The notes beneath the pieces are model-generated. The model was not told where the DNA came from, made no database searches, and saw only the letters and a program-made list of their open reading frames with translations. Made by a program: the position numbers and the translations under genes. Below, piece after piece: positions 1,104 to 10,757 of a DNA stretch of 22,065 bases (positions are counted from its first letter, which is position 1; every line of letters starts with the position of its first letter). The DNA is taken from IMG/VR virus record IMGVR_UViG_3300047550_003964, positions 1-22,065 of that record; one strand, written 5' to 3'. Source of the stretch: a virus.

Positions 1104-1836
1104 TTTGTTGCCTCACTTTCATTAGGGCTTGCAGGTCGTAAGTAGAACCGCGTTTCTCAATTCCAAACTTCTTAACTGCTCGATAAACCTCTCGCTCTGT
1201 CATTTGTAGCCAAGCAGCAATCGCCTCGATGTCGAGAAAGAATCTGCGATTCGGGTTGCTCATTGCTAGTGCCACCAATCTCAAGACCGACCAACTTTGT
1301 TTGCATCCAAAGCAACTGACATCTTGTGACATTTGTTCGACATCAATGACAACAAAACGATTGCAGTCATCAGTCGGACAAGGAATCCTTCTTGCCTGTT
1401 CTTTGAACTTTTTGGCGGCTGCACGACCCCTAGCGTGTAGCCCCCAAACTTCCCCTGCGAAGTCTAACGCCCACGGCTGAGTCAATGTCCAAGAAAGGTG
1501 GGCAATGTGGAACTCACAAGTTGCCAGGACTTCAAGGTCAGTGGTCGGCTCCCTCTTAACTAAGGCAGGCGGTGTCAACTGCCGGTCGCGCCTGATTATC
1601 TCTTCCCATCCGTGAAGGATGGCAAGAAGGTCAGTTGCCATTGAGAAGTCCAAGGCATTGACATTGATACCGATAGAGCGTTCGGCGCTGACCGCGCCAC
1701 TGCCGGTGCGTGATGGCTCAAGGTAGAAGCCTGCCTCGAACTGCAACTGTGGCAGCTCCTTGAAAATGGCCCTAAGGCGACCGAAGCAACTGCGACACTC
1801 GCCTTGCACTTCATTCTTACAGACTAGACATTGCAT
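1096..1836 (-). CDS. zinc-finger and helix-turn-helix DNA-binding protein
   Basis: This 246-aa protein has an N-terminal zinc cluster (CLVC at 3-6, CRSC at 14-17). A second CxxxxC/CxxC pair follows in the last third (CPTDDC near 152, CFGC near 174). The C-terminus resembles a MerR/excisionase-like winged helix-turn-helix: the segment after LDIEAIAAWL contains TEREVYRAVKKFGI and then a short wing. Proteins with this zinc-ribbon plus HTH layout are common in actinophage early regions and are presumed regulators or replication accessories. The ATG at 1836 shares one base with the upstream stop (TGATG), with AAAGG nine bases before it. It lies downstream of the repeat region at 2186-2292, a possible target; that is inference. 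Confidence 0.65.
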   Translation of the reverse strand: MQCLVCKNEVQGECRSCFGRLRAIFKELPQLQFEAGFYLEPSRTGSGAVSAERSIGINVNALDFSMATDLLAILHGWEEIIRRDRQLTPPALVKREPTTDLEVLATCEFHIAHLSWTLTQPWALDFAGEVWGLHARGRAAAKKFKEQARRIPCPTDDCNRFVVIDVEQMSQDVSCFGCKQSWSVLRLVALAMSNPNRRFFLDIEAIAAWLQMTEREVYRAVKKFGIEKRGSTYDLQALMKVRQQNA

Positions 1837-2168
1837 CAGAACGGCCTTTCCACATAGTCAAGCTCTTTCCAATAGTTCGGCGGTATCACTTCAAAGAGTT
1901 TGTAGGATGAGCAGTGATGCTCTCCCAAGATGACTGACCTCTTGGTCTTGCCCCACTTGATTCTGTTGGCACTTCTCTCAACCGCCTCAAAGGACACCTT
2001 GGTCTTGTGGCACTCAAAGGTCATCAGGTTGTTGATCCGTTTGATTATCTCTTCCTCAATGGTCAAGACAGGAGTATCAAGTCGGCGGGCAAAGCCAGCC
2101 CAACTTATCCCCGCCCAAATGAGGCTGCCACACCTTGAGCAATTTATAGGCTTGAAATCTTGATTCAT
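1836..2168 (-). CDS. hypothetical zinc-ribbon protein, 110 aa
   Basis: The protein has an N-terminal CSRC (C10, C13) and the motif LIWAGISWAGFARRLD, followed by a helical middle and a late CH/HHC group near residues 53 and 84-86 that could complete a zinc site. This layout recurs in actinophage genomes as a conserved protein of unknown role. It is the first gene after the repeat-rich intergenic region, and AAGGA sits six bases before the ATG at 2168. It could be a single-strand or repeat-binding protein, but the sequence gives no direct proof. Confidence 0.6.
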   Translation of the reverse strand: MNQDFKPINCSRCGSLIWAGISWAGFARRLDTPVLTIEEEIIKRINNLMTFECHKTKVSFEAVERSANRIKWGKTKRSVILGEHHCSSYKLFEVIPPNYWKELDYVERPF

Positions 2169-2192
2169 CTGTTCCTTCTCGCTGCTGAACCG

Positions 2193-2237
2193 AACCGAAC
2201 CTGAACCCCTCTAAAGAGGGGGTTCAGAGGTTCGGTT
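2193..2237. repeat. long imperfect inverted repeat (hairpin)
   Basis: The arms AACCGAACCT (2193-2202) and AGGTTCGGTT (2228-2237) are perfect reverse complements. The inner arms GAACCCCTCT and AGAGGGGGTTC continue the stem, with one bulged G and a two-base offset, around a small A-rich loop at about 2213-2215. The outer arm is the same 10-mer as the tandem copies at 2263-2292, so the hairpin is built from the repeat unit. No T-run follows it on either strand, which argues against a simple rho-independent terminator. Confidence 0.75.
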
Positions 2238-2262
2238 AGTCGGTGCTTTTGTGACTTTTTAT

Positions 2263-2292
2263 AGGTTCGGTTAGGTTCAGTCAGGTTCAGTT
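2263..2292 (+). repeat. three tandem 10-bp iteron-like repeats
   Basis: AGGTTCGGTT (2263-2272), AGGTTCAGTC (2273-2282) and AGGTTCAGTT (2283-2292) are head-to-tail copies of one 10-mer, i.e. one copy per DNA turn and all on the same helix face. Further copies occur in the hairpin arms. Ten-bp phasing suggests cooperative binding of a replication initiator or repressor. The repeats abut the 3' end of the PrimPol-helicase gene, with its stop at 2299. Confidence 0.7.
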
Positions 2293-2298
2293 GGACAT

Positions 2299-4365
2299 TC
2301 ACGACTCAGGTGTCCAAGTCTTAACATCGTGAGCCAAAAAGGTGTTTCGGTGAGAGTAAAGATTCTTCTGACCTGATTGCCTAATTGTCACCGCCCCTTG
2401 AGCTACTAGCGAGTCAAGAGCAACTCTGACCATATCGCTGCCCATTCCTATACCCTCATCTCGAAGTCGCTTCTTGATGTCATTAAAGTTCATCTCGTAG
2501 CCGTGCTTCTCAAGGAAGTTAGAAATCTGCTCCATTCGTTGATCCGCGTTGCTCGTGACAATCGCGCCACCCGATATGGACACAGAAATCCCACCATCAG
2601 GAAGGCTTCGTAGGTTGGCAACGCCGACCGTCTTGGCATCGGGGCAGATGGCACGGACAAAGCCAGGCCTATCCTTGGTGCAAGTTATATCAAGGGCTCC
2701 GTCAATGCCTCTGCCAAATGGCATCGCCACCGACACGGCAAAGGCCGCGCCGTCAATGTCAGCTCTCTTGGCTTGGGCTCCGATGGCATAGTTGCCTCGG
2801 TTGTCCTTTGATTTTGTGACATGGTCGATGGTGAGAATGCCAGCGCCACCGATCCTCAAGGGCTTCAAAATTGTCTGTGAGAAGAAGGTTGCATCCTTAT
2901 TCTTCTCTAAATCTAAGCCCATCAGGTTCATCGCGGCATTGACACCATCAACGACAATGAGGCTCGGTAGGTAGGCCATAATCTCAGTCTTCATCAATTC
3001 GCCAACACCTGCTTCGAGTTTTGAGTCAGGGTTTGCATACCTAAAGAACTTGAACTTATCTGTTGGCACCTTCATTGTCTTTAGGCGATTGAGAATGCCT
3101 CTTGCCGAGTCTTCAAAGTCTAAATAGAAGACGATGTTGTTCTTAGCAAGTTCTTGCCTGATTGCTTCCAATGCGAGCCAAGTCTTACCACTTTCAGATT
3201 CACCGAAGAGGGCATTTATCTTGCCTGCATAGATTAGACAGTTCCCATCCTCTCGTCTAAGCATTGATGGCGCAGGCTCATCTTCTAGTTCTAACTCTTG
3301 AATCTGTTTTGGTATCCAAGAAGACTCAAAAGGTTGACCTTCTTCATCGTGGAGTTGAACTAAGGCAGGTGAGTGAACTTCTAAGGTCTGAAGTTCTTTT
3401 CTTGCCTCGCCGTAGCCTTGCTCACGCAGAGCCTTGGCAGAGGCGGTGAAGTTGCCTTGGTGTTCAACGATAGTGAAGACTGCAAACTTGCTATAACTTC
3501 TCTCAGCTTCAAATTGTGTGCTACTTGAAAAGACATAGAACTTGTCATTGCCGGCGTGATTTGTGGTCGCGCTTATGCCTTCAGACTTGCCTGGTCTTCT
3601 CCAAGAGGTCACACCTGCCTTGTTGGTATAGACCTTTTTCCAACCTAAAGGCTCAAGTATCTGCTCCCAAGTGACTTTGGCGTTGTAATCATCACCAGGA
3701 GTTAAATTGACACCTTTTGGCGCAAGTTCTTCGGTGACAAACTCGACCTTGGGAACTGAATCAAAGGTTTCAAATAATTTGTGTAGTTGGTCGCGCTCGG
3801 CCACCGTCAGTGTCGGGATGCTATTGGCACCGCCAACCAACATCTTCCACGCTCCGCCCGAAGGATGGCAAGAGCCTGCCGATGGCGCGACAATGACAAA
3901 GCCGCCTTCGCCTCTTGTTTCGGCTAGGACATCAATCCCGCCATTTTCTCCTGGCCTTCTTGCAAGTTTGGTGTTGCCAGGCACAATTCCGTCAATGCGA
4001 TAGAGCCAATGAATCCCGCCTGATGGAGTCATCTCCACATAGCCGTTGTTTATCCGATCCCATACATTGCCAAGGCCTGCATTATTTGCCATCTCTTTTA
4101 AGTCAAGGTGCATCTTGTCGGCAACTGCTCTTCCTTCTAGCTCTAGCATCTCAAGATTGCCACTGACTTTTCCGCAGATGACACCGACACCTTCGGCGTT
4201 TGCAAACCAAGAAAGTAATTCTTGCGGGCTTGGCAGGCGTTCTTGATACAACTTCCAATTTGCAAGTGCAGGCCTCTTAGAACCATCAGTTGCAACCGGC
4301 ACCGCACAGATGCCATTGGCAGCGAACTCAAGTCCTGTTCGTAAGATTTCCCCCGTCATTGTCAT
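2299..4365 (-). CDS. PrimPol-helicase (bifunctional primase/polymerase with RecA-like ATPase)
   Basis: The 688-aa replication protein starts with an archaeo-eukaryotic-type Prim-Pol domain (about 10-180): LEMLELEGRA at 71-80 at the first catalytic acid position, GGIHWLYR at 116-123, and GFVIVAPSAGS near 155 followed by HPSG. A linker leads to a RecA-like P-loop ATPase: Walker A GESESGKT (388-395), Walker B LIVVDG (469-474) and a motif-3-like LTIDH (511-515). The last 80 residues form a winged-helix-like domain. Such proteins prime and unwind phage DNA at the fork. The usual first DxD is ExE here. The start at 4365 follows the upstream stop by one base, and the adjacent repeats at 2186-2292 may be its origin. 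Confidence 0.88.
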   Translation of the reverse strand: MTMTGEILRTGLEFAANGICAVPVATDGSKRPALANWKLYQERLPSPQELLSWFANAEGVGVICGKVSGNLEMLELEGRAVADKMHLDLKEMANNAGLGNVWDRINNGYVEMTPSGGIHWLYRIDGIVPGNTKLARRPGENGGIDVLAETRGEGGFVIVAPSAGSCHPSGGAWKMLVGGANSIPTLTVAERDQLHKLFETFDSVPKVEFVTEELAPKGVNLTPGDDYNAKVTWEQILEPLGWKKVYTNKAGVTSWRRPGKSEGISATTNHAGNDKFYVFSSSTQFEAERSYSKFAVFTIVEHQGNFTASAKALREQGYGEARKELQTLEVHSPALVQLHDEEGQPFESSWIPKQIQELELEDEPAPSMLRREDGNCLIYAGKINALFGESESGKTWLALEAIRQELAKNNIVFYLDFEDSARGILNRLKTMKVPTDKFKFFRYANPDSKLEAGVGELMKTEIMAYLPSLIVVDGVNAAMNLMGLDLEKNKDATFFSQTILKPLRIGGAGILTIDHVTKSKDNRGNYAIGAQAKRADIDGAAFAVSVAMPFGRGIDGALDITCTKDRPGFVRAICPDAKTVGVANLRSLPDGGISVSISGGAIVTSNADQRMEQISNFLEKHGYEMNFNDIKKRLRDEGIGMGSDMVRVALDSLVAQGAVTIRQSGQKNLYSHRNTFLAHDVKTWTPES

Positions 4366-8026: not shown

Positions 8027-8398
8027 TCAGTAGTAGTTTTTTTCCTTGAAGTGACTCCAAGCCTTGCAGGGAGTCAGGTGTCGCCTATGGATGTAGGCAA
8101 GTGTTGCCACAAGTTGTGGCACCGATGCCTCGGTGTGTTTCATTCCGAGGTTGCGATAGGTGGCATCGAGCAGTTGCCCAATACCTTTGGCGCTGGAATC
8201 AGGGTTTTTTGCCTCTGCATTCCAGGCTGACTCCTTACCGAGCAATTTCGCCAGGCAGGAATACTCTTTTTTTGTCAGCAATTTCTTCGCCAATTTCTTA
8301 GCATCGACTTGCTGCAAGATAGGTCTTTCTTTGTAAACAATAGATGCAGGAATTGCAGGTTGTGGTGCAAATGCCGCATTCACCAACATTGAAGTCAT
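8027..8398 (-). CDS. SLT-like lytic transglycosylase
   Basis: The 123-aa protein carries the soluble-lytic-transglycosylase fold: catalytic glutamate E56 in LLGKESAWN, the AKGIGQLLDATY motif at about 69-80, a LVATLAYIHRRH helix and a PCKAWSHF end. These enzymes cleave peptidoglycan between MurNAc and GlcNAc. The first 25 residues are hydrophobic and Ala/Pro-rich and may help export, but no clear signal peptide is present. It is unusual to find it among recombination genes rather than with lysis or tail genes. The ATG at 8398 overlaps the WhiB stop (ATGA), with GGAG upstream. It could act in DNA entry or in lysis. Confidence 0.78.
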   Translation of the reverse strand: MTSMLVNAAFAPQPAIPASIVYKERPILQQVDAKKLAKKLLTKKEYSCLAKLLGKESAWNAEAKNPDSSAKGIGQLLDATYRNLGMKHTEASVPQLVATLAYIHRRHLTPCKAWSHFKEKNYY

Positions 8399-8865
8399 TG
8401 CGCTGACTCCGATGATGATGATGATTCCCCTGAAGGTTTTTCTGCGTTGAGTAATTGGGATTCTCCTTCTAATTTCGCAGCTCTCTTGAGAACCTGAGTG
8501 ACATAAGCCAATTCGATTTTCATTGTTGCTGCGATTTCTTTGGGTGTTCGCCCAAAAGAATGCAAGGATCGGATTGCATCAGCGCGATTGACTCGCCCTG
8601 TTTTGCGATTCTTAAATCCTTGCCCAAAGCCTCGCTGTGCAGGCGTGGTGCCTGCCCATATTCCGTGAGGGATTTGTTCTTTGAGCGCGTAGTCCAAGCA
8701 CTCCTTTCTTTCAGGACAACCGGCGCAAATAGTGCGCGCGATTGGAAGGCACTTTGCCTCTTGTTCTTTTGATTCAGGAAAAAATAAGTTTGGGTTGATG
8801 ATTCCTTTGCAACTCGCTTCAGGTAAAAGTGGAAGCGTTGGATAGAATAATTGTAGAACATTCAC
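8395..8865 (-). CDS. WhiB-family iron-sulfur transcriptional regulator
   Basis: The WhiB pattern is complete: C19, then C47-x2-C50-x5-C56 as 4Fe-4S ligands, and the GIWAGTT turn at 68-74, the equivalent of the family's GVWGG. A further cysteine at 39 is not part of the core. WhiB proteins occur only in actinobacteria and their phages and bind the primary sigma factor to alter promoter choice, so this gene fixes the host group. The protein is longer than usual: residues about 90-130 look like an HTH (RTPKEIAATMKIELAYVTQVL) followed by a Ser/Glu-rich tail. It starts at GTG 8865, with a GTGA overlap with the resolvase-like gene. Confidence 0.88.
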   Translation of the reverse strand: MNVLQLFYPTLPLLPEASCKGIINPNLFFPESKEQEAKCLPIARTICAGCPERKECLDYALKEQIPHGIWAGTTPAQRGFGQGFKNRKTGRVNRADAIRSLHSFGRTPKEIAATMKIELAYVTQVLKRAAKLEGESQLLNAEKPSGESSSSSESAQ

Positions 8866-10177: not shown

Positions 10178-10302
10178 TGAAGAAAATCAGAAGCGTTCGT
10201 GTATCGGATCAACTATGGCGCAAGGCGCAGGCGAAGGCGCGGGCAGAGGGCAAATCATTGTCCGAAGCCATCAACGATTTCTTGAAGGAGTATGTCAAAT
10301 GA
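10177..10302 (+). CDS. ribbon-helix-helix (CopG/Arc-type) protein, 41 aa
   Basis: A short frame fills 10177-10302 exactly: its ATG shares a base with the preceding stop, and its stop overlaps the Prim-Pol start (ATGA, 10299-10302). The protein opens with a basic strand, KKIRSVRVSDQ, continues LWRKAQAKARAEG, and ends SLSEAINDFLKEYVK. This is the ribbon-helix-helix pattern (beta strand, helix, turn, helix) of dimeric DNA-binding regulators. At 41 residues it is a minimal RHH. It probably binds DNA as a dimer and may repress this cassette or the divergent early promoter. No toxin gene is evident beside it. Confidence 0.75.
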   Translation: MKKIRSVRVSDQLWRKAQAKARAEGKSLSEAINDFLKEYVK

Positions 10303-10757
10303 CAACTGCCGAAATCGCCACCGCCTTTGCAAAGCGCGGTTGGTATGTTCTGCCTTGCTATCCACAACAAAAGATTCCATTCTTTCCGATAGCAAAGCAA
10401 GGTTATAAGTCAGCCTCGAATAAACCTGCCACAGTCAAGAAGTGGTTTGAGAAGTCGCCTTTGCTAAACATTGGAATTGCTTGTGCGCCATCAAATCTTG
10501 TGGTCTTTGATATTGACTACCGCAATGGCGGAAGCACCGATGGCTTAGACCTTGACACCTTCACAGTTGAAACAGGTGATGGCTTGCATCTCTACTACAA
10601 GGCACCAATTGGCGCTTCTTTCAAAGGCAAACTGCGCGATGGCGTTGACATCAAGTTCAATGGATATGTTGTCACCGCAGGATCAATGCACGAAAACGGC
10701 AAATTCTATGAAATTGTCAAAGACATTGAGCCTGCCCCTGTGATGGGATGGTGCTAA
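10299..10757 (+). CDS. stand-alone Prim-Pol domain protein, 152 aa
   Basis: The start at ATG 10299 (overlapping the RHH stop) is used; upstream in-frame sequence is the RHH gene in another frame. The protein is a single archaeo-eukaryotic Prim-Pol fold: AKRGWYVLPCYPQQKIP at the N-terminus, the catalytic DxD as VVFDIDYRNGG (D71, D73), GDGLHLYY with H97, then VDIKFNGYVVTAGSMH (117-131). Members synthesise primers and can extend DNA. There is no helicase domain, and the phage already has a PrimPol-helicase on the other strand. It could be a dedicated primase for a second mode of replication, a lesion-bypass enzyme, or a regulator. Confidence 0.82.
   Translation: MTTAEIATAFAKRGWYVLPCYPQQKIPFFPIAKQGYKSASNKPATVKKWFEKSPLLNIGIACAPSNLVVFDIDYRNGGSTDGLDLDTFTVETGDGLHLYYKAPIGASFKGKLRDGVDIKFNGYVVTAGSMHENGKFYEIVKDIEPAPVMGWC

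Follow-up and report, generated by a model that had tools for sequence, protein, structure and literature searches.

The gap that follows the primase-helicase gene of a viral genome fragment holds an array of short repeated units and a hairpin built from the same unit. We compared this site, in a 22,065-base virus record (hereafter the window), with its counterparts in related phages, and found that the array is probably a replication origin, or an initiator-loading site, that is read by the phage's own primase-helicase and can be swapped as a cassette. From the same comparisons, we regard it as highly likely that the site is the replication origin of the phage, and as very likely indeed that the C terminus of the primase-helicase reads the units.

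Repeated units and a hairpin after the PrimPol gene

The gene at 2299-4365 (minus strand) encodes a 688-amino-acid predicted initiator, which we call PrimPol, with a Prim-Pol domain (PF09250), a RecA-like AAA_25 helicase domain (PF13481) and a predicted winged helix at its C terminus. Just past its stop, three exact copies of AGGTTCRGTY lie head to tail on the plus strand at 2263-2272, 2273-2282 and 2283-2292 (AGGTTCGGTT, AGGTTCAGTC and AGGTTCAGTT; 10-bp spacing), as the first-pass annotation of this DNA had described. A hairpin at 2193-2237 has two inverted copies of the same unit as its outer arms, at 2193-2202 (minus strand) and 2228-2237 (plus strand). The annotation was right about these arms, but its count of five copies missed a sixth, inverted and with one mismatch, that overlaps the outer arm at 2188-2197 (minus strand). 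The spacer that it had called AT-rich does lie between the iterons and the hairpin (2238-2262), but is only moderately so (A+T approximately 64%, counted from the sequence). Inside the hairpin is a core at 2206-2221 (CCCCTCTAAAGAGGGG; CCCCTCTTTAGAGGGG on the PrimPol strand, that is, the minus strand), which is common to unrelated AAA_25 phages.

The sequence GGTTCRGT occurred at six sites in the 22-kb window, all of them inside 2189-2291 (103 bp), against 0.84 expected, and six or more sites were reached in none of 100 shuffles. The commonest 7-mer of the 140-bp gap was present in five copies, whereas 1000 dinucleotide shuffles gave a maximum of four (p ~0.001). Consistent with an iteron origin, the three copies at 10-bp spacing are in-phase short direct repeats that adjoin an initiator gene. 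On the side of the array opposite PrimPol lies a gene (1836-2168, minus strand) for a 110-amino-acid protein whose beginning resembles a zinc ribbon. Elsewhere in the window, a second protein with a Prim-Pol domain (180 amino acids; PF09250, E 1.1e-26) is encoded at 10215-10757 on the plus strand, opposite to the large PrimPol, and a WhiB-family gene at 8395-8865 suggests that the host is actinobacterial.

One alternative explanation is that the PrimPol winged helix acts on these units as on an operator, regulating its own operon or later genes, and that replication starts elsewhere. The genes on either side of the array are transcribed in the same direction, many repressors contain winged helices, and the known structures that resemble this domain are mostly those of transcription regulators. 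However, the units stand downstream of the primase-helicase gene rather than ahead of it, the domain that would bind them is part of a helicase-primase, and an operator would not be expected to keep a constant core beside AAA_25 helicases whose neighbours differ. The lone promoter-like match at the array is weak and at background level. We consider regulation of this kind unlikely.

We then turned to relatives, of which 55 loci were retrieved with PrimPol as the query and more with an alignment. The first-pass annotation had proposed an iteron-type origin beside a replication initiator, and conservation in these relatives strongly supports that proposal: wherever the corresponding gap could be read, the repeats were present. 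On this comparison the anatomy is conserved, with the PrimPol stop followed by direct units, a spacer, the hairpin, inverted units and the next gene, and with a hairpin core that is CCCCTCTTTAGAGGGG or a CCTATAAGG variant. The unit itself came in six types, A (YYGAACC, the type of the window), B (YYGTTCCG, in L002 and others), C (YTGTTTCCC), D (YYGTTCC(C/T)), E (CGCGCCGA) and F (YYGATCCG). Between relatives, the hairpin arms and the direct units always switched type together, with the core mostly unchanged.

This joint change also bears on the possibility that the hairpin is an RNA element of the replication operon, a terminator or processing signal, beside which the repeats are incidental. 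The transcript strand of the hairpin region has a strong predicted fold (-48 kcal/mol over 128 nt) with a G+C-rich stem and a short apex, as such an element would. We found no terminator-like site at the array, the stem being without a T-run, and no Rfam family that matched the hairpin, and so rejected it as an intrinsic terminator or known RNA. Because direct repeats outside the hairpin change with its arms, and because the core is also found in the orientation opposite to that of the helicase gene, an RNA element is very unlikely.

Some relatives carry additional DNA at this position. In L080 (7082-7157), the array is separated from the PrimPol stop by an inserted tRNA-Gly gene (anticodon tcc) and an open reading frame, and L030 and L036 have inserted open reading frames at the same place. 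Some loci have a further cluster of units, immediately behind the PrimPol stop and ahead of the standard array: the type-A loci L021, L043, L045 and L054, in which it is framed by the inverted repeat TTTACGCTCAA...TTGAGCGT, and the type-B loci L005, L024 and L034; this cluster may be an enhancer-like element or a second part of the origin. When the type-A double unit CCGAACCTRACCGAACCT was scanned against 2.9 million viral contigs, 16 of the 17 matches lay beside the PrimPol family of the window. The lone match outside the family (L255, ~2354-2371) belongs to a type-A-like array of CTAACCGAACCT repeats in an unrelated phage that is without a PrimPol of the window's type; this array adjoins a gene that, by reading, resembles a RecA-type recombinase.

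The PrimPol C terminus and the unit type

The only protein segment that tracked the unit type was the last ~80 residues of PrimPol. On a tree of PrimPol residues 1-595 the unit type changed 15 times, against 5 times on the tree of the C terminus; the minimum possible is 4. For the 54 loci in common, the zinc-ribbon gene required 12 changes, the PrimPol body 12 and the PrimPol C terminus 5; for 47 loci, the next gene, beyond the zinc-ribbon gene, required 10, the PrimPol body 10 and the C terminus 5. Since only its C terminus follows the unit type, PrimPol itself is, on these sequence comparisons, the most likely binder of the units.

We ran AlphaFold on the last 88 residues of PrimPol together with 39 relatives. 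The model (mean pLDDT 74; 81-84 in the core) has helices at 7-21, 27-37 and 43-56 and strands at 59-64 and 67-72, and is predicted to form a winged helix that spans residues ~607-672 (2350-2547, minus strand). Among PDB structures it matched 2mh2 best (TM 0.90 by target length, E 9e-4); Zur, BlaI, FurB and further wHTH proteins came next. By contrast with this C-terminal domain, which was usable alone, the AlphaFold model of full-length PrimPol was too poor for use, and a phmmer search of PrimPol against the PDB gave no meaningful match. The third helix begins at residue 642, and residues 642-655 (2401-2442, minus strand) form the predicted recognition helix.

The first four residues of this helix sort the iteron types. 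Residues 642-645 read G-S-D-M (or G-G-x-S) with type A, small-N-x-E with type B, K-D-x-E with type C, N-N-E-E with type D, G-N-T-E with type E and G-N-D-N/G with type F; residue 645 is Glu with GTTCC units, Asn or Gly with GATCC and mostly Met or Ser with GAACC. None of the 25 distinct 7-residue recognition helices was paired with two unit types, although some of the added loci are contigs that were fetched twice, so that the independent cases are fewer than the rows. In the three relatives with inserts after the PrimPol stop (L030, L036 and L080), the array lies beyond the insert, and in all three its unit was the one predicted from the recognition helix.

Comparison of close relatives also points to replacement of the C terminus and the array as one unit. 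The PrimPol of the window is 99.3% identical to that of L002/L003 over residues 1-595 but 38.4% identical over the remainder. Other pairs that differ in unit type behave similarly, with body identities of 98.5-99.7% and C-terminal identities of 42-62% (L014/L029, 99.7% and 41.9%; L020/L024, 99.3% and 61.6%; L042/L083, 98.7% and 45.3%). In DNA, the sequence of L002 departs from that of the window at PrimPol codon ~601 (~2563) and rejoins it ~13 bp short of the ATG that starts the gene downstream of PrimPol (~2181), and the two flanks are 98-100% identical. What is exchanged between these breakpoints thus corresponds precisely to the C-terminal domain plus the region of repeats and hairpin, a cassette of ~380 bp (2181-2563) that is replaced as a unit in L002-like relatives. 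Most relatives are metagenome contigs, so any single junction could be an assembly chimera; several of the junctions come from different samples.

These observations do not fit the suggestion, made in the first-pass annotation, that a neighbouring zinc-ribbon or zinc/HTH protein reads the iterons of the origin. Small adjoining genes do have zinc-ribbon or HTH features, but the cassette that is exchanged does not include the zinc-ribbon gene, and the iteron types agree with the tree of this gene no better than with that of the PrimPol body. The tree counts of the next gene give the same result. We rejected both genes as the binder on the tree counts, and consider recognition by a neighbour extremely unlikely. 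Just as improbable is a centromere-like partition or incompatibility site bound by PrimPol: iteron arrays with winged-helix binders occur in plasmid partition too, and two of the PDB matches are centromere-binding proteins, but here the DNA-binding domain belongs to a primase-helicase, and we noticed no partition gene beside PrimPol in the window.

The hairpin core in other phages and plasmids

The 16-mer core CCCCTCTTTAGAGGGG was present in at least 119 stretches, against 12 for a control hairpin of equal composition (CCCCTGTTTACAGGGG). We examined 110 core loci from among the matches listed, which formed 45 sequence clusters. In 14 of these 45 clusters from the matches listed, the 3' end of an AAA_25 (RepA-family) helicase gene lay within ~260 bp of the core, and the 5' end never did; these assignments were confirmed by Pfam, and L148, for which there was no such confirmation, was dropped from the count. 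The primase parts of the helicases vary, and include Prim-Pol, Toprim_3, a DnaG zinc ribbon, PriCT_2 and a DnaB-like N terminus. Each of the core-bearing AAA_25 loci has its own repeats around the core, which occurs in the opposite orientation relative to the helicase gene as well. Approximately half of the 45 clusters, again from the matches listed, have no AAA_25 gene in the fetched stretch, and some of these look like unrelated hairpins. Two of the 12 control-hairpin matches, in L218 (~3743) and L219 (~7630), lie 62-99 bp after AAA_25 helicases and have their own repeats. Because they share the arrangement, the core tolerates changes in its stem, and the hairpin family is broader than the exact core.

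We also sampled 18 named phages with AAA_25 helicases. A significant repeated unit follows the AAA_25 gene in Salicola CGphi29, Idiomarinaceae 1N2-2, Alteromonas XX1924, ct3Oc712, Roseobacter CRP-406, CRP-811 and CRP-821, Rhizobium RHph_N65, MinS1 and P8625, most of which also have a hairpin with a CTNNAG-like apex. In the E. coli phage Sortsne the repeats were borderline (p 0.056), next to an 11-bp hairpin with CTAAAG, and in 7 of the 18 there was no array after the helicase (ct76p945, ctyzp037, Phelemich, Vibrio 1214, LittleMunchkin, SE-W109 and RootBeer). In the Verrucomicrobia phage P8625 (L246, 3530-3644), the stretch from the helicase to the end of the linear record contains eight copies of ATCGGCA, and no hairpin was seen in it. 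The same architecture after an AAA_25 gene occurs in plasmids of Methylobacterium and Caenibius, and in two IncQ plasmids repC is followed immediately by three iterons and then by hairpins.

CRP-811 and CRP-821 have the hairpin AAACCCTTTAGGGTTT in common and are 95-100% identical in a stretch of the helicase domain. Their units (ACTACAAA and TTGTATAAA, respectively) differ, and their C-terminal blocks are 55-77% identical; their N-terminal parts differ too. As judged from these sequences, the pair is a second case in which the unit and the C terminus differ around a kept hairpin.

The first-pass annotation had proposed cumulative GC skew as a check on the origin, and this lent it no support outside MinS1. 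The skew is flat at the site in the window, and among four complete phages with this architecture there was no step at the array in CRP-821, ct3Oc712 and RHph_N65; a step was present in MinS1.

A model for the proposed origin and its relation to known systems

We infer the following sequence of events, in which physical binding, origin activity and the role of the hairpin are deduced from the comparisons above. The PrimPol winged helix would bind the three direct iterons and the inverted units that flank the hairpin through a base-specific recognition helix. Binding would place the RecA-like helicase of PrimPol at the array and open the DNA, and the constant hairpin, exposed or extruded, could then serve as the loading or priming point for the helicase and the Prim-Pol domain. 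PrimPol would in this way be primer maker, helicase and origin reader at once, forming one self-contained replicon module in which the origin lies beside the code for its reader. The 3' end of the gene encodes the DNA-binding domain and adjoins the sites of that domain, so that domain and origin could be replaced as one cassette; recombination that swaps these ~380 bp would confer a new origin specificity in one step and leave the primase, the helicase and the hairpin core unchanged.

Parts of this arrangement have precedents. The alpha protein of phage P4, like PrimPol, has a primase and a helicase fused in one satellite-phage protein, and it binds the origin through its C terminus. Its primase is of the Toprim type (PMC4234260), unlike the Prim-Pol of the window. 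The C termini of the helicases SaPI Rep and SCCmec Cch2 bind iterons just downstream of their own genes (PMC7581432). As in the window, a helicase initiator with a C-terminal DNA-binding domain (predicted in our case) has its sites directly downstream of its gene, but SaPI Rep and Cch2 belong to other helicase families (Cch2 is discussed with the D5 helicases; PMC7581432), whereas the helicase of the window is an AAA_25 (PF13481) domain fused to Prim-Pol. The conserved hairpin core that joins the iterons in the window is a further difference from these two systems.

In pRN1, a stem-loop after the gene for a PrimPol-helicase-winged-helix protein is the origin and is needed for replication, and the authors of that study suggest likewise for phage BIP-1 (PMC4234260). 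This protein, ORF904 of a Sulfolobus plasmid, combines Prim-Pol, a helicase and a C-terminal winged helix in a single chain, as PrimPol is predicted to do. However, its helicase is of the SF3 type and the ~100-nt stem-loop is not accompanied by iterons, whereas the window has AAA_25, iterons and a short hairpin with a constant core. In RSF1010, RepC binds the iterons, RepA unwinds and RepB' primes at hairpins (PMC4234260). The RepA-family (AAA_25) helicase is common to the IncQ/RSF1010 system and the window, but RepA, RepB' and RepC are separate proteins and the iterons are ~20 bp, whereas in the window the functions would be fused in one protein. The hairpins of the two IncQ plasmids that we compared are without the CCCCTCTTTAGAGGGG core.

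The origin of geminiviruses has a conserved stem-loop. Lineage-specific iterons are there recognised by the cognate Rep (PMC12548392). These are ssDNA plant viruses with a rolling-circle Rep that is not homologous to PrimPol, and the likeness is one of analogy only.

Downstream iteron origins linked to helicases are thus of an already known kind. The open literature that we searched contained no paper with the 16-mer core, and none that brought together phage, iterons, origin of replication and RepA helicase. Judged against that literature, three features appear to be new: a core common to AAA_25 phages with different primases, the apparent natural exchange of a winged helix and an origin as one cassette, and the pairing of recognition helix with unit.

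We tentatively propose that these sites could represent a widespread, as yet unnamed class of phage and plasmid origins with RepA-family (AAA_25) helicases, an idea that we rate at slightly less than even odds. In this class, the near-constant hairpin CCCC-TNTTTANA-GGGG and related CTNNAG apexes would be shared as a loading or priming site by helicases that are joined to very different primases. The lineage-specific iterons would form an exchangeable specificity cassette with the C-terminal DNA-binding domain, with diversity maintained by satellites or because selection disfavours cross-recognition when phages co-infect. The gap between two genes is a natural experiment on origin recognition, with six repeat types and 25 recognition helices, and phage pairs that are nearly identical except for the cassette allow a direct test of the base-by-residue code by which a winged helix would read an origin. 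The array would also make it possible to predict origins in many phages that have RepA-family helicases, would raise the question of what job the constant hairpin does, and would suggest that phages exchange origin specificities in nature.
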